A stretch of 20,209 bases of DNA, from IMG/VR virus record IMGVR_UViG_3300004369_000199, positions 1 through 20,209 of that record. The stretch is one strand, 5' to 3'. A program made the translations under genes and the position numbers. Of this stretch, positions 2,707 to 20,209 are shown in pieces (the first letter of the stretch is position 1; every line of letters starts with the position of its first letter). Source of the stretch: a virus. Below the pieces are notes generated by a model. The model saw nothing but the letters and a program-made list of their open reading frames with translations, made no database searches and was not told the origin of the DNA.

Positions 2707-3438
2707 TCAGTCGAGTGCTGAGTACCGTTTAACGATGCGTTTGATGGATTGCGGGAACCATTTATTGCCACGACAGGTAATGTCTGAGGCTTCGAGTTCG
2801 CTGATGATGTCGGCATAGCTCCAGCGGTAGACGGTTCGCCATTCCATGATCTGAGCAATGACCGCCTGTTCTTCGGGGTTGTGAATCATCCCTTCGTAGT
2901 GTCCGCATTTGGCGTGCCGTTTGGATGTCGTGTCTTCCATCATGCCGTAGGGGAAGTTGGCCGGGTTAAGGTGTGCTTTGCGGTTGTCCATCCGGTGGTT
3001 CATGGCTGATTTGGTACGTTCCGCGATGGCCCGTGGTTCCCATGAGGCAACGCCGAGCAGGAAGGTGGCAATCATTTCGCCGGTCGCTGTTGATGTGTCG
3101 ATCGAGCAGCCACCTTCGTTAGCCAGATGAAGTCGGACATGACTTACTTTCCAGTTTTCGAGGGTAGAGAGTCCGTCGATGGTCTTGCGGAAGACTCGAT
3201 CGAGTTTCATGGCAATGACGTTGGATTCTGGCGGAAGAGCAGCCAGCTTTGCTCCACCGGGTCGTTCGAACAGAGATGTTGTTCGTGCCGAGACTTCCGG
3301 GTCTTCAATGATTCGGTCGACGGCCAGACCGTTGACGTCGCAGTATTTGCGGCAGGATTCGATCTGGACCTGAAGAGAGACGGCACGTTCGGCTGCATGT
3401 TCCGGTCGTGGGCTGTAGCGGCAGTAGATTACGTTCAC
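2707..3438 (-). CDS. Serine recombinase (resolvase/invertase family)
   Basis: Serine recombinases cut and rejoin DNA at short recombination sites through a covalent phosphoserine link. This 243-residue protein has the N-terminal catalytic signature YCRYS with the candidate nucleophile Ser9 and Arg7, then SLQVQIESC, EDPEVSA, and the core MKLDRVFR where families usually show klDRlsR. The segment TGEMIATFLLGVASWEPRAI followed by AERTKS matches the long connecting helix. The C-terminal part (about 185-240) resembles the start of the Recombinase domain, with a helix-turn-helix-like WSYADIISEL. It is shorter than large serine integrases (usually over 400 residues) and a little longer than small resolvases. 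The start is GTG at 3438 with ACAGGA upstream. It heads the leftward operon, divergent from the late genes. Confidence 0.85.
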   Translation of the reverse strand: MNVIYCRYSPRPEHAAERAVSLQVQIESCRKYCDVNGLAVDRIIEDPEVSARTTSLFERPGGAKLAALPPESNVIAMKLDRVFRKTIDGLSTLENWKVSHVRLHLANEGGCSIDTSTATGEMIATFLLGVASWEPRAIAERTKSAMNHRMDNRKAHLNPANFPYGMMEDTTSKRHAKCGHYEGMIHNPEEQAVIAQIMEWRTVYRWSYADIISELEASDITCRGNKWFPQSIKRIVKRYSALD

Positions 3439-12343: not shown

Positions 12344-13792
12344 ATGACTGAGAGTACCCTATCGCTGACTCGGAACAACCTTCGTGAAGAGGTTGGGCTG
12401 AAGCTGGGGTATGGATTGAATACGTCCGGCTGGACCCCCGAGCAGATATCCCGCATGGATATCTGTATTCGAAACGGGCTGGGACGTTTCTACTTCCCAC
12501 TGACTGGTGAGACGAAAGAGCGTTACGAGTGGTCGTTTCTGCGTATCTCCGCGTCGTTATCGCTCTCTTTTGGAGCAGGTGATACTTACGTTCTGCCGGA
12601 TGACTGTGACGGCACGGTAGATGAGTTCATCATTACGCAAGTCGGTGGATTGCCGGGTGGTGCTCCGAATCGAATCCCTGTTATTCCGATTAACGAGTTA
12701 CGGCAACTGGAAGCGAAAGAGGCAGGATTAAAAGACGTTCCAAAGGTTGTTGCGATCCAGACGATCGCTCCGTTGTTGCCAACTACGACTGTGTCTCAAC
12801 GGCGAGAAGCGATTTTTTATCCGGCTCCGAATACCGACTACACGGCCACGTATGAGTATCCGGTCGAAGTCGACAGCATCGGTTCGACGAATACGTTTCT
12901 GCCAGGTGGTGCAGCACACAGCCAGGCGATCGTAGCGTCGTGTCTGGCTGTGGCCGAGCAGTACCTGACTCCCGGTGAGACAGTACACCAGCAGGAGTTT
13001 CAGCAGCGTCTCCAGGCGTCGATTGAGCACGACAAGCGGAAGTACAAGACCAGCAAGCACAAGACGTGGGTGTTGACTGAGCCGGTACTTGGCTCGTTCA
13101 ACTGGTTGAAGCGTGAAGTGTCGGGGTATCTCTACGGTGAGTGGAATACGTTCCTGTTGACGTTCACGGAGAATGCTCAGGTTGAAAGTCTGGTCCAGCG
13201 AGGTTTGCACCAGTTCTATTCGCCACCGGGCCAGCGTCAGGGGTGGAGCTTCCTGAATCTGATCGGGACGCTGACGATGGTGGTCGAACAGGCGGCTTAC
13301 GACTTGCCGAGTGGTTTCTCGGAACTTGTTGGCAAGATGACGCTGACCAAGACGGGTTCGTACAAGCCGATTCCATTGGTGCTGGAGTCGGACATTCGTG
13401 CGATTCAGACAGCCGCAGCCACTTCAGGGATTCCCGAATACGTGGTCGTTCGGTCCAAGACGACTGATGGAAGTGCTGCCCATCTTCGGGAAGCGGTGTT
13501 CTATCCGACACCAGACTTAGCGGCTGCGACTTTGACTCCGAATACGATTACCTACCGATATAAAATCAGCCCGGCATCGTTGTCTGCGTCAGTCGAATAC
13601 CCATACGGGCACGACGTTCATGCAGAGACGATGCGGCAAGCGTGCATCCTGCTAGCCTCCGAACTGAAAGAGGGGGCGGATCAGGGAATGGAATCTCAGA
13701 AGTATCAGCAGTTATTGAACGCCAGCATGATGGCTGACATCAATGTGGAACTGCCAATTAACCAGACAGCAGCCCTTCCACCGCAACCGTAG
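12344..13792 (+). CDS. Two-domain connector-type structural protein (repeat copies A and B)
   Basis: This 482-residue protein is an internal duplication. Copy A (about 1-235) and copy B (about 250-470) share, in the same order, GLGRFY / GLHQFY, WSFL (63-66 and 301-304, offset 238), YVLP / YDLP, a segment leading to FYPAP / FYPTP (158-162, 386-390), a Y-E/R-Y strand, then AxxxAC-type helices (HSQAIVASCLAVAE / HAETMRQACILLAS) and QRLQAS / QLLNAS. Two neighbouring genes carry further copies. Position between capsid and fibre suggests neck, adaptor or tail-tube subunits; I do not recognise a named family with certainty. No signal peptide or membrane segment is visible. Confidence 0.7.
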   Translation: MTESTLSLTRNNLREEVGLKLGYGLNTSGWTPEQISRMDICIRNGLGRFYFPLTGETKERYEWSFLRISASLSLSFGAGDTYVLPDDCDGTVDEFIITQVGGLPGGAPNRIPVIPINELRQLEAKEAGLKDVPKVVAIQTIAPLLPTTTVSQRREAIFYPAPNTDYTATYEYPVEVDSIGSTNTFLPGGAAHSQAIVASCLAVAEQYLTPGETVHQQEFQQRLQASIEHDKRKYKTSKHKTWVLTEPVLGSFNWLKREVSGYLYGEWNTFLLTFTENAQVESLVQRGLHQFYSPPGQRQGWSFLNLIGTLTMVVEQAAYDLPSGFSELVGKMTLTKTGSYKPIPLVLESDIRAIQTAAATSGIPEYVVVRSKTTDGSAAHLREAVFYPTPDLAAATLTPNTITYRYKISPASLSASVEYPYGHDVHAETMRQACILLASELKEGADQGMESQKYQQLLNASMMADINVELPINQTAALPPQP

Positions 13793-13804: not shown

Positions 13805-14563
13805 ATGGCAGTTAAAGGCACATTCCCACAAGCTACGATTACTTACGGCACCTACCAGTGGCTTCAGTTGAAGCTGGGTATTTTTCTGGCGAAAGAGCTG
13901 GGAACGACTGCGAACTTCGAGACGAATGATTCGTACCAGAATGGTGTGATTGATCACATTATTCAGTCAGGTGTTCACGACTTTTATACACCAACATTGG
14001 CTCCGGGCCAGAAGCGTCCGTATCCGTGGAGCTTCCTGAAGGTTGCTGGTTCCATTACGCAGCAACTCACCGTATCGGAATACACACTGCCAGCGGACTT
14101 TGCAGGCTGGGTGGGGGATTTCACAAATGCGGTGGCAGGAGGAAATCGCCGGATCAAGGTGATTTACGAGGGTGATGTGAGAGCATCGCAGGCGATGGAG
14201 GATACGGCGGCTGATCCTCAGTATGTCTGTGTGCGTGCGATTACGCATGGAACGCAGACCGCACGGCAGACGTTTGAGCTGTCACTGTTTCCAACACCGG
14301 ATGCCGCCATTGTCATCGATTACCGATACACGGCGTTGCCTGCCGTCCTGACGGCCACGAACAAGTATCCGGCTGGTGTTCAGGGCCATGCTGAGACAAT
14401 TGCGGCAGCGTGTCTGGCAAAGGCCGAGAGCGAAATCATGAATACGGTCGGGCCAATGAATCAGCTTTACATGCAACGATTGCAGGCCAGTGTGATGCTG
14501 GACAGCGGGTTTGCTGCTGAGAGTCAGGACGATGATCTGTTCGACGTGACACCACGGGGATAA
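13805..14563 (+). CDS. Connector-type structural protein (repeat copy C)
   Basis: This 252-residue protein is one copy of the domain found twice in the upstream gene. It shows IQSGVHDFYTP (53-63), WSFL (75-78), YTLPADF (93-99), LFPTPD (161-166), IDYRY (171-175), HAETIAAACLAKAE (195-208) and QRLQAS (224-229). The N terminus YGTYQWLQLKLG is shared with copy D rather than with A and B, so C and D seem to form a closer pair. AGGA eight bases before ATG 13805 supports the start, and the gap to the upstream gene is 12 bases. A role as neck or tail subunit is inferred from context. Confidence 0.7.
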   Translation: MAVKGTFPQATITYGTYQWLQLKLGIFLAKELGTTANFETNDSYQNGVIDHIIQSGVHDFYTPTLAPGQKRPYPWSFLKVAGSITQQLTVSEYTLPADFAGWVGDFTNAVAGGNRRIKVIYEGDVRASQAMEDTAADPQYVCVRAITHGTQTARQTFELSLFPTPDAAIVIDYRYTALPAVLTATNKYPAGVQGHAETIAAACLAKAESEIMNTVGPMNQLYMQRLQASVMLDSGFAAESQDDDLFDVTPRG

Positions 14564-14837: not shown

Positions 14838-15818
14838 ATGCGTCGAGCATCGTACCCATCAGCAAGGCCGAGTTACGGCACATACGAATGGTTCCAGCGG
14901 GAACTAGGCGTAGCTGTGGGTATTGGTGCGAACTACCACAATTGGGATCATCCGGACGTCGAGAAAGTCGACAGTGTGATTCAGCGTGGAATTCACCGCT
15001 TCTATCAACCTGCGGGAACAGGCCAGCGATTCCAACGGGGATATCAATGGTCGTTCCTGTATCCATTGACGACGTTGACGACATCAGCGGCCTACAGCAC
15101 TGGCACGATTACCGTTGTGGCGGGCGTGGCGACGATTGCTGGTGGAACATGGCCGTCATGGGCAGCAGACGGCGACCTGTTGATCAGTGGCGTGAAATAC
15201 GCGGCAGCGTCAGTGAATGGGACGTTTGACGAACTGACACTGGAAGACACGACGGTAACGGCAGCGGCGTTGACGACGTTCAGCTTGACTCGCCCTCGGT
15301 ATTCGATGCCAGCCACATTCGACGGATTCGATGGTCCGTTGACGTACCAGCCTGGTACTGGTCTGAGTGGTCCGATTCGAGTGACTACGGAGCATGAAAT
15401 CCGCAGGCTGGATCAGGAGTTCATCAGTTCTGGTCGGTGTCGTCTGGCGGCTTTGTATCCCGTGACGCCAGATGCAACTACTGGTTCACGCTGGCAGTTG
15501 AAGCTGTTTCCCGCTCCTGATGCGGTGTACCTGTTGGAATATCGCTACCGGATTGAACCGACTGATTTACTGCCGGGTGAGTATCCGCTTGGCGGAAGAG
15601 GTAATGCGGAAACGATTCTGATGAGCTGCATGGCAATTCTGAATCCGCAGTTGGAGCAGACGTTTCTGGCGAGGATGGCATCGGCCATTGATCAGGACCA
15701 GTCGAGTCATTCAGCGACGTTCATCGGTCAGAACCTTGATCGTTCCGATGAGATTCGTTCCGACAGTGGTTATCGAAACAATTCCCTGACGCCCTACGAA
15801 GGCTCTTATTACAGCTAG
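14838..15818 (+). CDS. Connector-type structural protein (repeat copy D) with inserted beta module
   Basis: This 326-residue protein is the fourth copy of the repeated domain. It shows YGTYEWFQRELG (13-24), IQRGIHRFYQP (48-58), WSFL (71-74), YSMPATFDG (155-163), a TEHEIRR segment (184-190), LFPAPD (223-228), EYRY (234-237), NAETI (256-260) and LARMASAIDQDQ (277-288). Between WSFL and YSMP it has about 65 extra residues (about 83-150) rich in Thr, Gly and Val, reading as a small beta barrel with TGTITVVAGVATIAGGTW. Such modules occur in other phage structural proteins. The C-terminal 35 residues are polar. Role as neck or tail component is inferred. Confidence 0.7.
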   Translation: MRRASYPSARPSYGTYEWFQRELGVAVGIGANYHNWDHPDVEKVDSVIQRGIHRFYQPAGTGQRFQRGYQWSFLYPLTTLTTSAAYSTGTITVVAGVATIAGGTWPSWAADGDLLISGVKYAAASVNGTFDELTLEDTTVTAAALTTFSLTRPRYSMPATFDGFDGPLTYQPGTGLSGPIRVTTEHEIRRLDQEFISSGRCRLAALYPVTPDATTGSRWQLKLFPAPDAVYLLEYRYRIEPTDLLPGEYPLGGRGNAETILMSCMAILNPQLEQTFLARMASAIDQDQSSHSATFIGQNLDRSDEIRSDSGYRNNSLTPYEGSYYS

Positions 15819-15827
15819 GACACAAGC

Positions 15828-16175
15828 ATGGGCAGTCAACAGCCAAACTTGGATGCGTTACGGAAGGTATTCACCGCAACAGGAACGGCGGGGAACGCTT
15901 GCGTGTTGACCATACCGGCGGTTGCGGGTGACTTGCACGTTCTGGAACACGTCGAGTTCTCATACGACGATGATCCAGCAGTCGGAGCAACGATCACGGC
16001 CACGACGGACGCAGAAACATTGCTGGACCAATTCGTTAAAACGGGAGGACCGGGCCAGTTCAGGTTTAACTCAGGTGGACGGCATGGCTCCGAGAGTACG
16101 CGAGGTTCAACGATCGTAATAACGCTCGCAGCGTCTGCCGGTCGAACCGGGAAAATCAATGCGGGGATTCGATAA
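15828..16175 (+). CDS. Small beta-rich virion protein candidate
   Basis: This 115-residue protein is dominated by beta-forming residues with Ala/Gly/Thr-rich stretches (FTATGTAGNACVLTIPAVAG) and ends in a short basic segment. No family is recognised with certainty. Composition and placement among structural genes suggest a small virion protein, perhaps a decoration or fibre-base subunit. An AGGA lies upstream, overlapping the previous stop. Its stop codon overlaps the glycosyltransferase start by one base (TAATG), which ties this putative virion protein to the glycan enzymes. Confidence 0.6.
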   Translation: MGSQQPNLDALRKVFTATGTAGNACVLTIPAVAGDLHVLEHVEFSYDDDPAVGATITATTDAETLLDQFVKTGGPGQFRFNSGGRHGSESTRGSTIVITLAASAGRTGKINAGIR

Positions 16176-17053
16176 TGGGTTATGGCGGCAGCATGGGTGG
16201 AACGAGCGGCATGGGTGGAATGATGATGAGTCTTCCATCGCATGATGCCGGTCTGGTCGAAGTTGTTGAAGAACAGGACTGCCTCGGCGGTGTGGCTGAC
16301 ATTCAGTTGATCAGTCCGTTTGCCGGGAAGACGTTCTGTTTCGACAAGTGGCAGAAGAGCATCAAGTCTCTGCCATTGGATCGCGTCCATGCAACCTTGT
16401 ACGACAACAGCAATGATCCAGCGTTTCACAAGATGCTGCGGCGATTTGCGAGAGCGACGTTACCAGCATTCACGCTGATTCGAGACAGCAATACGGTTCA
16501 GACGATTGAGTCGACGGCAAACTATCGACAGATCGTCTCCCGGTGCAGTCAGGTGTACGATCACATTTACACGAACCTGCTGATTCCGTCGTGTTCCCTG
16601 ATCCTGAATCTGGAAGACGACGTCTATGTACCAGCCGGTTCGTTCGATCGTCTTGAACGGGTGATCGCTGAGAATCCCGATGTGGCGACGGTCATTGGGA
16701 ATTGCCGGGACCGTCGAGTAGCCGTGCTGGGGCAGAAGCCTCAATCAATCTCGGTGAACTTCCTGAAACGAACGTGCATTGGTGGGGTTCCCAAAGAAGA
16801 CGTCAAAGTTGAGTGGGCACCAGAACGGGAATGGGGCATTGAGCACATTGGTGCTGGTCACATGGGATTCTGGTTGTCTCGGGCCGACGTCGTTCGTGAG
16901 TTGGGAATGAAGACTTCTCCGCGAGAGGACGTGATTGGACACGACATACAGTGGGGACTACGAGTGAACGAGTCCGGTCGTCGATTTGCGATTGACTGGT
17001 CCGTGAAGCTGGATCATTTCTATCAGAAGGCTGGTGAGGTCGTCGCGTGTTAG
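16175..17053 (+). CDS. GT-A type glycosyltransferase
   Basis: GT-A glycosyltransferases transfer a sugar from a nucleotide sugar, using a metal held by an acidic DxD-like motif. In this 292-residue protein residues 40-80 form the first strands and helix (LISPFAGKTFCFDKWQKSI, then TLYDNSND), and LILNLEDDVYVPAG (142-155) contains the Glu-Asp-Asp metal site. GAGHMGFWLSR (226-236), GHDIQWG (255-261) with a candidate base or acceptor-site Asp, and VKLDHF (277-282) complete the fold. The exact family and sugar cannot be told. The first 20 residues are an odd Gly/Met-rich leader (SMGGTSGMGGMMM). It overlaps the sulfotransferase gene by seven bases, so the two are probably made together. Confidence 0.8.
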   Translation: MGYGGSMGGTSGMGGMMMSLPSHDAGLVEVVEEQDCLGGVADIQLISPFAGKTFCFDKWQKSIKSLPLDRVHATLYDNSNDPAFHKMLRRFARATLPAFTLIRDSNTVQTIESTANYRQIVSRCSQVYDHIYTNLLIPSCSLILNLEDDVYVPAGSFDRLERVIAENPDVATVIGNCRDRRVAVLGQKPQSISVNFLKRTCIGGVPKEDVKVEWAPEREWGIEHIGAGHMGFWLSRADVVRELGMKTSPREDVIGHDIQWGLRVNESGRRFAIDWSVKLDHFYQKAGEVVAC

Positions 17054-17625
17054 TTCTTGGAAAATGCAGGTTCATCTGTTGCCCGAAGACTGGCAGCAGG
17101 TTCTGCACAGCAGCACTGATTCGATCGACACCGAACGCGATCATTTACGATGGGACAGGTGAGAGGTATCACGTTTCTGTGGACAGAGGACCGGGAAGGG
17201 ATCGTCCAGCATTCGGTTTCGTTCGACATCCGGTCACATGGTACGAGTCGTACTGGCGTCACCGAATGAGTCATGGCTGGACAACGAATCATGACATTGA
17301 CAGAGATTGCCGATCGGACGACTTGAACCAGTTCGTTGAGAGTGTTCTGGATCAGCATTGTGGCTGGTTGGGGCGTTATTTTGAGCAATGGCTGGGGACT
17401 GACTATCAGTCACTGGCTTATGTTGGTCGGTTTGAAAGCCTACTGGACGATCTATGTAAGGCGTTGGAGTTTTTCAAGCAGCCATTCGACGAAGAGAAGT
17501 TGAGAGCAACGTCAGCGGTCAATGTCGGTGACAAAGACTTGCATCCGGCAGAGTTGGACGAGTCGCTACGACAGCGAATCATGGAATCTGAACACAGGCT
17601 GATGAGCCGGTTTTACGAGCAGTAA
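17047..17625 (+). CDS. PAPS-dependent sulfotransferase
   Basis: Sulfotransferases move a sulfo group from PAPS to hydroxyl or amino groups of glycans, lipids or proteins. This 192-residue protein has the two cofactor signatures: CPKTGSR (12-18), the 5'-phosphosulfate loop, and FVRHPVTWYESYW (58-70), the 3'-phosphate site with Arg60 and Ser68. YVGRFESLLDDL (125-136) matches the usual downstream helix, and His42 is a candidate catalytic base. It is short compared with the 250-300 residues of many sulfotransferases but keeps the core. The start is GTG at 17047 with GTGAGG seven bases upstream, inside the end of the glycosyltransferase gene. No signal or membrane segment is seen, so it should act in the cytoplasm. 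Confidence 0.82.
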   Translation: MLVLGKCRFICCPKTGSRFCTAALIRSTPNAIIYDGTGERYHVSVDRGPGRDRPAFGFVRHPVTWYESYWRHRMSHGWTTNHDIDRDCRSDDLNQFVESVLDQHCGWLGRYFEQWLGTDYQSLAYVGRFESLLDDLCKALEFFKQPFDEEKLRATSAVNVGDKDLHPAELDESLRQRIMESEHRLMSRFYEQ

Positions 17626-17643: not shown

Positions 17644-18003
17644 ATGGCACCTCACAACACAAACATTCGCGGAGCAGAAGCACGACTGTTGACGATTCCC
17701 GATCCAGGCAACGCGGGCAGTATCGGGACAGGTTCCCGGATTATCGCTCACGTCGGTATCGTAACAGTGGCAGCGGAAACACGGTCGCTGCTTGATCCGA
17801 CCAGTCCCGGTCAGCAACTCACTATTTCCATGAAAACCGATGGCGGTGATGCCGTTATCACAGCCGATTCCGCGATCAACCAGACTGGCAACACAATCAT
17901 GACGCTGGCTGATGCCGGTGACGTGATCCAGCTTGTGGCGATCGAAGAAGGAACGTCGCTGGAATGGCGAGTCATCGGAAACGATGGCGTTGCGTTGTCG
18001 TAA
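17644..18003 (+). CDS. Small virion protein, beta-rich
   Basis: This 119-residue protein reads as beta strands: IIAHVGIVTVAAETRSLLDP, then DGGDAVITADSAINQTGNTIMTLADAGDVIQL and a final WRVIGNDGVALS (quoted here only in parts). The pattern of a Gln-Thr-Gly-Asn turn, then an Ala-Asp-Ala-Gly-Asp turn, then a Trp-Arg-Val strand recurs in small phage structural proteins found next to fibre genes, often as unassigned capsid or fibre-associated proteins. AAGAG upstream is an acceptable ribosome site. It lies between the sulfotransferase and the tail fibre. Confidence 0.6.
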   Translation: MAPHNTNIRGAEARLLTIPDPGNAGSIGTGSRIIAHVGIVTVAAETRSLLDPTSPGQQLTISMKTDGGDAVITADSAINQTGNTIMTLADAGDVIQLVAIEEGTSLEWRVIGNDGVALS

Positions 18004-18030: not shown

Positions 18031-20209
18031 ATGGCACTCGTCGTAGCAGACAGAGTCAGAGAACAGACCACGACCACCGGCACGGGCACCTACACCCTTG
18101 CCGGTGCTGTCTTGGGTCATCAGGCTTTTTCGGTCGTCGGTGACGGCAGTACAACGTACTACTGCTGCACCGATGGGACCGATTGGGAAATCGGCACTGG
18201 CACGTATACAGCCAGTGGCACGACGCTGGCACGCACGACCGTTCACGCTTCCACGAACGGCGGTAGTGCTGTTGACTGGTCGGCTGGTACGCGGAACATC
18301 TACGGAGTTCTGCCCGCGACAGTCCTTGACTCCCTGATCAATGCCACTGGTGCTGGTGCTGGCGACGTTGTTGGTCCAGGCAGTGCCACGGATAACGCAG
18401 TTGCCCGTTTCGACTCGACCACTGGTAAGCTGTTGCAGAACAGTGCTGTTCTGATCGATGACTCGTCCAACGTCGAGGTGCCTGGTCAGATCGTGGTGGG
18501 GCCTGGCAGTACGATCGGTGCGACTTACGACAGCGTCAGTGGCGGTCAAACGAACGAGGCGAGTGGCGGCTACAGTACGGTGAGCGGTGGTCAGAACAAC
18601 TCTGCTCTGGCAACGCACTCGGTGGTGTGCGGCGGGTCTACGAATTCGAACTCAGCGGCGTATGCGTTCCTTGGCGGAGGTCAGAACTGCTCCATCGCTG
18701 CCGGTGCAGAACACGGCGTGGTGGCGGGTGGAAACAACAACGACATCACATCCACAGGACACGACAACACCATCAGCGGAGGCATCAACAACTCCATCAC
18801 AGGCACTGCGTATGGCGTGACCGTTGGAGGAGGCGGGGTTAATACAGTTAGTGGGTTCTACTCCACGATTTCTGGAGGAACGACTAACTCAATCGCCACT
18901 AACTACGCAGTGTGTTCGGGCGGCTGGAGGAATACAGTCGGGACCGGCGAAGGTGGAGTGATTGGTGGCGGCAAGGACTGTTCCACAGGGACAGGCGGCT
19001 GGTCGACGATTGGTGGAGGGATCAATAACGACCTCACCGGCCAGTACGAGTTCATTGGAGGAGGTCTTTCGAACCAGATCACTGCTACGTCGTATGCGGC
19101 TATCTGCGGAGGCACTGCCAACACAGTGGCGACCGACTACTCCTTCGTAGGCGGCGGATTCACTAACACGATCACGGCAGGCACTTCAGCCGTGATCGTT
19201 GGAGGCAGCACGAACACCTCTTCAGGAGCGACTGCATTCATCGGTGGCGGATTCTCCAACGCCGTGTCCGGGTCGTACGGCGTGATTGTTGGAGGCGACA
19301 ACGGGACCGTTTCCGGGTTGCATGGATTCATCGGTAACGGGCACGACCTGACGACAGGCACGGGTTCCTACAATGCCGTCGTATCGGGAAACGCCAACAC
19401 GATTCCATTGAATGGTTCCTACAACTTCATCGGCAGCGGATACCAGAACACAATTTCTGCCGCCGCTCCACAGTACAACTCGATCGTGGGTGGTCAGGCA
19501 CAGACCATCAGTACCACCGAGGACTGGAACTTCATTGGCGGTGGATACGGTAACACTATATCGGACACCGTTTCCCGATGCTCCATTCTAGGGGGCCAGA
19601 CCAACACCATTTCCAGTAGCGGTGGCTACAAGTTTATCGTTGGGGGTCTCAGCAACGCCATTAGCACGCCCAGCAGCTACTCGTTCATTGTCGGAGGAGA
19701 GACCAACGCCATCACGTCCGGCGAGAACGTGGTGCTGGTCGGCGGCGAACGCTGTCAGGCCAACGGCAATCGGTCGGTGCTGGTCGGCGGATACGAGTGC
19801 CAGTCCACGGGCGGCGAGTCCTTTGTGGGGGGTGGGTATAAAAGCATTGCCTCAGCGTCGTCTGCCGTCGTCGTGGGTGGCAGGACAAACACCGCGTCGG
19901 GCATCGAATCGTTTGTGGGTGGAGGCGAACTGAATTCAGCCACCGGCAGCAACTGCACCACGGTGGGCGGATACACCAACACCAACGATGCCACAGAAGG
20001 ATTCATAGGCGGGGGACGGCTCAACTCCATCGTTGTTGGAGGCGACCACTCGGTGATCTGCGGCGGGGAAAGCAACACCATCACAACGAATCCTTCCGAC
20101 GACTGCTTCATCGGTGGCGGCACTACAAACACGATCACGGCGGGACTGTATGTCACGATCACGGGCGGTTTTGACAACGTCGCCACAGGGACCGGGGCGT
20201 TTGTAGGGG
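18031..20209 (+). CDS. Tail fibre with YadA-like GG-x-x-N repeats (3' end outside window)
   Basis: The frame from ATG 18031 (GGCGAGGA upstream) stays open to the window end, giving at least 726 residues. Residues 1-105 are a phage fibre attachment region: [37 protein letters not shown], then [13 protein letters not shown]. Next comes a linker with [17 protein letters not shown], common in phage fibres. From about residue 169 onward it is a long array of about 35 repeats of 14-18 residues, each centred on GG-x-x-N followed by a short beta strand (e.g. [12 protein letters not shown]). These resemble the left-handed beta-roll head of trimeric adhesins such as YadA, suggesting a long trimeric fibre. 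The receptor-binding tip, if any, is not visible. Confidence 0.88.
18535..20209 (+). repeat. Coding repeat array in the tail fibre
   Basis: About 35 imperfect units of 42-54 bases encode the GG-x-x-N beta-roll repeats. At DNA level they are diverged, with recurring words such as ATCGGTGGCGG and CAACACCATC, so exact copies are short. The array still runs when the window ends. Such repeats can change in number by recombination or slippage, which would alter fibre length. Confidence 0.8.

Follow-up and report, generated by a model that had tools for sequence, protein, structure and literature searches.

We analyzed a 20,209-base virus record (IMGVR_UViG_3300004369_000199, hereafter the window) and found that two overlapping genes in it, encoding a putative GT-A glycosyltransferase (GT) and a putative PAPS-type sulfotransferase (ST), belong with a small upstream gene to a locus that, judging from related contigs, represents one allele of a variable locus in phages. 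The reading we put forward, at roughly even probability, is that the locus is a late-expressed cassette decorating the virion of a Planctomycetota phage with a glycan, with the small protein as the favored acceptor and sulfation as the following step. The window is probably a fragment, since its 3' end is open inside a fibre gene, and by these searches its phage group appears to have no near relative in culture.

Family HMM searches showed that the window is otherwise occupied by a virion module, which includes an SU10-type portal and adaptor. The cassette follows an adaptor gene (14838-15818) and is succeeded by a second small gene and a repetitive fibre that runs from 18031 to the window end (Table 1). 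GT starts with ATG and carries NLEDDV at residues 145-150, and ST starts with GTG and has R60-HPVTWYE-S68 in addition to its PKTGS motif. The stop codon of the 115-aa upstream gene overlaps the GT start codon, and the GT and ST reading frames share 7 nt. An earlier sequence-only reading of this region had proposed two overlapping genes, placed between two small genes ahead of the fibre and read late with virion parts; the ORFs, the overlap and the flanking genes are as it described, and the gene neighborhood supports the late virion-module context. GT and ST are real genes: both are conserved in independent contigs (identities of mostly 38-47% for GT and 36-66% for ST), their overlap is kept, and their dN/dS values are low (0.12 and 0.06, respectively, between contigs L012 and L013), which demonstrates purifying selection on both. 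Elsewhere in the window, the fibre (18031-20209) contains Gly/Ser/Thr/Asn-rich repeats of the SGG..N.. type, similar to trimeric-adhesin head repeats. Three SU10-adaptor-like paralogues lie in succession (12344-13792, 13805-14563, and 14838-15818), the first of which consists of two tandem halves, giving four related domains consecutively; this array is retained in L009, L012, and L013.

Table 1. Features of the cassette and its right flank in the window.
Feature	Position	Strand	Evidence
Small protein, 115 aa; predicted jelly-roll-like beta sandwich, candidate acceptor	15828..16175	+	AF2 pLDDT 84.9; linkage to GT
Putative GT-A glycosyltransferase (GT), 292 aa	16175..17053	+	AF2 pLDDT 89.8; Z 16-19 against GT-A structures; 24 other contigs with relatives
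Gly/Ser-rich disordered N-terminal tail of GT (GGTSGMGG)	16175..16252	+	pLDDT <50 for residues 1-17
GT residues 1-90, of the window's own lineage	16175..16444	+	Clade with L009/L012/L013, support 98/94
GT residues 91-292, of another GT clade	16445..17050	+	Clade with L018/L020/L021/L028, support 100/100; own lineage rejected, p-AU 4e-5
EDD metal motif, E147-D149	16613..16621	+	Invariant in 22-member alignment
GT/ST overlap GTGTTAG, 7 nt	17047..17053	+	Equal length in 7/7 contigs with this ST type
Putative PAPS-type sulfotransferase (ST), 192 aa	17047..17625	+	hhalign 97.4% to Sulfotransfer_2 phage proteins; Pfam 13 bits, below cut-off
Predicted 5'-phosphosulfate-binding motif PKTGS, residues 13-17	17083..17097	+	K14, T15, G16 invariant in 6 close relatives
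Predicted 3'-phosphate-binding motif R60...S68	17224..17250	+	R60, S68 invariant in 6 close relatives
Small structural-type gene, 119 aa; right flank outside the cassette, closing the insertion site	17644..18003	+	47% homologue in cassette-free Planctomycetota prophage

The predicted structure of GT is that of a GT-A fold enzyme. Its AlphaFold2 model (pTM 0.87) matched solved structures with a Foldseek E value of 2.7e-9, and Z scores of 19.3, 18.6, 18.1, and 16.9 were obtained for Mnn9, COLGALT1, LH3, and Mimivirus R699, respectively, at sequence identities of 8-14%. Since many GT-A enzymes are nearly tied in this comparison, no substrate is deducible for GT, and the collagen-glycosyltransferase matches were dropped as a pointer to a protein acceptor. 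The EDD motif named in the sequence-only reading proved to be an invariant acidic, DxD-like metal motif in the alignment of GTs from viral contigs. In single-sequence HMM searches, GT had no Pfam, PHROG, or NCBIfam family above cut-off, and some of its relatives gave only weak matches of the GT2/GT21 type. Sequence searches of the PDB with the window proteins yielded no significant assignment; weak matches to a phospholipase A2 and a Fab chain were attributed to chance. DNA-base glycosylation was also considered and dropped, as the neighborhood shows no evident hypermodification gene and the fold and location fit it poorly. Most relatives also have a Gly/Ser/Thr-rich GT tail, and a G-x-[SA]-G motif recurs there in 17 of 23 GTs; tail similarity tracks the phage backbone in a label shuffle, a test that takes no account of relatedness. 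Such a tail might serve as a docking peptide or as an autoglycosylation site.

For ST, profile comparison supports a PAPS-type sulfotransferase of Sulfotransfer_2 kin. Against Sulfotransfer_2 (PF03567), both ST and its L001 relative (18.7 bits) scored below the gathering cut-off of 22 bits. A profile of six close ST relatives matched established phage members of Sulfotransfer_2 (57-75 bits to PF03567) at an hhalign probability of 97.4% (E = 1e-11); the GT profile, used as a control, gave 0.2%. An HMM of the six relatives also matched L015-L017 at about 1e-8. The PAPS motifs proposed from the sequence stand in the canonical spacing, and the distance of eight residues from R to S is typical of the sulfotransferase family. 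Because single-sequence searches remained below threshold, the fold of GT was demonstrated via structure and the homology of ST via profile-profile comparison; the structure and HMM checks suggested in the sequence-only reading thus upheld both class assignments, but by these two routes and not through any single-sequence HMM. Contigs of the L015/L016 type are large phage contigs (about 195-222 kb), in which at least two Sulfotransfer_2 genes occur in runs near GT-like genes (L015:9983-12601 and L016:9374-10570); an epimerase-like gene is present in L016 and L017.

To describe the locus in related phages, 25 GT contigs were compared, with repeat fetches excluded (the window, L001-L003, L005-L013, L018-L022, L028-L033, and L035). 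The slot after GT is occupied by the window's ST type in seven of them (the window, L001, L002, L003, L009, in which it is truncated, L012, and L013), by a second ST type, marked by PKTGG-like motifs, in four (L021, L029, L030, and L031), and by a methyltransferase that carries a P-loop motif C-terminally in another four (L005, L018, L019, and L020); it is empty in nine and cut off in L033. L029 has two STs, and its second-type ST is separated from GT by a gap of about 0.6 kb. Wherever the context is readable, the GT loci lie in virion modules, at sites that vary (after the adaptors, before the terminase, after the portal, or between terminase and portal). The GT/ST pair, which the sequence-only reading suggested seeking in related phages, is therefore present in several contigs, but not as the fixed pair it had assumed: what recurs is a unit of small protein and GT, in which the GT alleles recombine and the third slot can be exchanged. 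Relatives of GT and ST were sought in 50,697 cultured phage records without success, a pattern scan of 84,980 genomes detected no phage-type GT, and the cassette was not found in the cellular-genome scans for the phage GT. Several peculiarities of individual contigs were also recorded. The methyltransferases at L005:1123-2043, L018:6858-7766, and L020:2064-3053 carry, in a fused C-terminal domain, a P-loop-like GxxxxGKTSL motif, and L030:4499-5680 is an ST-like domain fused to Methyltransf_24. The large terminase of L002 (1333-3849) has an apparent intein-like insertion splitting its match to the L001 terminase, and a similar gap is seen in L018, L022, and L033.

The family of the window's small protein is located directly upstream of GT in 20 of the 25 contigs, the remaining five (L007, L010, L011, L031, and L035) having a different gene there. 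Among the loci scanned, the small-protein HMM matched GT-bearing loci only, and a reciprocal search in which one phage group's small protein served as the only query retrieved nine contigs, all nine of which carry GT. The jelly-roll-like beta sandwich predicted for the window protein is a fold that occurs in decoration and cement proteins; its assignment as a turret or cement protein by fold match was rejected, the matches being at background level. As this is the one gene that accompanies the GT locus from backbone to backbone, we favor the small protein, and not the fibre, as the best acceptor candidate, and it would then be expected in virions. The sequence-only reading had named the fibre or a decoration protein as targets to consider.

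Phylogenetic comparison shows that GT alleles move between phage backbones, while the small protein does not. The small-protein tree unites the window with L012/L013 (support 96/95) and L001 with L003 (100/99). The GT tree rejects both groupings (p = 0.0007 and p = 0.0003, respectively), as well as a clade of the window with L009/L012/L013 (p-AU 0.008) and the gp7-type phages as a single clade (p = 0.0003). These trees also rule against the small protein and GT as a single mobile unit, since the former follows the backbone and the latter is exchanged; this pattern fits a constant acceptor and would equally fit a mere neighbor. Between the window and L012/L013, identity is 65% for ST and 43-45% for GT, and sliding identity suggests an intragenic switch in GT near residue 90. 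Separate trees place the two parts of GT in different clades (Table 1), the breakpoint at residue 90 having been picked after viewing the sliding-identity plot, and the window GT is therefore an intragenic mosaic whose first part includes the disordered Gly/Ser-rich tail. L012 and L013 are 93-100% identical in the other compared genes, 90% in the small protein, and 84% in GT; the corresponding dS values are 0.04-0.15 for most neighbors, 0.45 for the small protein (dN/dS 0.17), and 0.90 for GT. Positive selection on GT was considered and rejected, as recombination accounts better for its low dN/dS combined with raised dS. Two adaptor genes also have raised dS between these contigs (0.35 and 0.67), so that mosaicism extends beyond the cassette.

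The window's major capsid protein matched one of 392 Planctomycetota genomes (E = 5e-75), and the matching locus is a prophage with a corresponding terminase, portal, capsid, adaptor, and recombinase-like gene. On the basis of this related prophage, the host is probably a member of the Planctomycetota. In the prophage, an unrelated 115-aa gene stands between the adaptor and the homologue of the window's 119-aa gene, and the GT, ST, and small-protein HMMs had no match in it; the cassette is therefore accessory at this site. The window also contains a recombinase-like gene (2707-3438, minus strand) with a 28% homologue in the prophage, which, together with the prophage itself, suggests a temperate phage. 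Tandem GT2 proteins whose second part is homologous to GT were among the matches in 14 of the 392 Planctomycetota genomes, and homologues of the GT domain were found in 0 of 398 Pseudomonadota genomes in a run without positive control; the first-pass scan was heuristic, and some of the weaker cellular matches are ordinary GT2 proteins. These counts point to an enrichment of GT-domain homologues in Planctomycetota and not to their absence elsewhere. Four such Planctomycetota proteins (L109, L110, L111, and L112; 555-999 aa) have a GT2-like domain followed by the phage-GT-homologous domain, and proteins of this type are a possible source of the phage GT gene. APS kinase is present in all five Planctomycetota genomes tested, including the prophage carrier, which makes a host supply of PAPS plausible.

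In the mechanism we propose, GT would be made in the cytosol alongside the virion proteins and would use a nucleotide-sugar donor to glycosylate a virion protein, most likely the small jelly-roll protein. The translationally coupled ST would then sulfate the added sugar with host-supplied PAPS, and other enzymes in the slot, such as the methyltransferase, would fit a capping step. Both kinds of occupant of the third slot represent common glycan-tailoring activities. Exchange of GT alleles and of the tailoring enzyme would make the surface glycan differ between otherwise similar phages. The enzyme activities, donor sugar, acceptor, glycan sulfation, the small protein's place in virions, and the benefit are all putative in this scheme. 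A more specific proposal, that a constant jelly-roll acceptor, a GT with a recombining larger C-terminal part, and a sulfation/methylation slot together form a dedicated locus for virion-surface glycan diversification, is more tentative, and we consider it possible but somewhat less probable than its opposite.

The sequence-only reading had left the choice between a glycan on the virion and one on the host surface. In the latter case, the enzymes would alter and sulfate a planctomycete surface glycan and thereby block superinfection or re-adsorption of progeny. The tandem GT2 proteins of Planctomycetota, which contain homologous GT domains and are perhaps surface-glycan enzymes, are in line with this, as is the temperate life suggested by the recombinase-like gene and the related prophage. 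However, GT, ST, and the small protein have no membrane segment (maximum KD19 1.3), no flippase-like ORF is adjacent to the cassette, and no polyprenyl-linked GT is nearby. Moreover, the locus lies in virion modules of several backbones, linked to a small virion-like protein, and not at a lysogenic-conversion position. Because the cassette lacks membrane segments and lies in frame with the late genes for the virion, we favor a virion acceptor in the cytosol and consider modification of the host surface unlikely.

Even within a virion-directed system, GT and ST might have separate targets and be adjacent through operon coupling alone. The nine contigs with GT and no adjacent ST, and the replacement of ST by unrelated methyltransferases, would be expected in that case; yet the 7-nt overlap is kept across several backbones, even where GT is mostly of another clade, and all alternative occupants of the slot are tailoring-type enzymes, which makes such independence quite improbable. 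We give the lowest probability of all to the idea that GT is its own substrate or a virion component, glycosylating its Gly/Ser tail while the small protein merely docks or assists. The tail is disordered and Gly/Ser/Thr-rich, with its recurring motif and backbone-linked similarity, as this idea would have it, but it is missing or degenerate in five contigs (L007, L028, L031, L032, and L035), Gly/Ser tails can be docking peptides, and there is no sign of GT entering virions. Decoration of a virion protein, for which the small protein is the candidate, thus remains our preferred reading.

If this reading is true, phages would diversify their surface chemistry much like bacterial O-antigen variation, and interchangeable, sometimes sulfated virion glycans would be a chemical counterpart of tail-fibre switching. 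Planctomycetota are known for the degradation of sulfated polysaccharides, and we speculate that sulfate on the virion coat might help in attachment or mimicry. The locus offers a small three-protein system open to testing. Our literature search found no sulfated bacteriophage virion.

Among known systems, serotype-converting gtr cassettes are also glycosylation genes of temperate phages that differ between related phages, with a membrane-bound GT and a flippase; the cassette of the window has no membrane-bound GT and no adjacent flippase-like ORF, and it lies in a virion module. The Sulfotransfer_2 genes (PF03567; PHROG 3347) of the large phages L015-L017 resemble ST in their PAPS motifs and profile homology, but belong to islands for glycan synthesis, together with epimerases and other GTs, whereas ST lies in a virion run and below the Pfam cut-off. 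GT has its fold in common with Mnn9, COLGALT1, LH3, and Mimivirus R699 (Z 16.9-19.3), at 8-14% identity, and the near ties with other GT-A enzymes leave no ground for claiming a shared substrate. The second domain of the tandem GT2 proteins L109-L112 and the phage GT are homologues, with E values as low as 2.4e-14, but the tandem proteins are cellular and fused to a GT2-like domain, and no linked small protein was seen. Virion glycosylation by phages is so far known chiefly from mycobacteriophages: in Che8, Corndog, and Myrna, phage enzymes glycosylate proteins of the capsid and the tail (Freeman et al. 2023, as cited in PMC12363180 and PMC11256854). These systems and the window have phage-encoded glycosyltransferases in common; virion proteins are the targets there and presumably also those of the window GT, which is associated with virion genes. 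They differ from the window in that its GT stands in a structural run beside a small partner and an ST/methyltransferase slot, and its glycan is putative; the window cassette also has no sequence match to cultured phages. We infer that the locus is a kind of phage virion glycosylation with unusual additions, namely a sulfation/methylation slot, exchange of GT alleles, and an intragenic mosaic.
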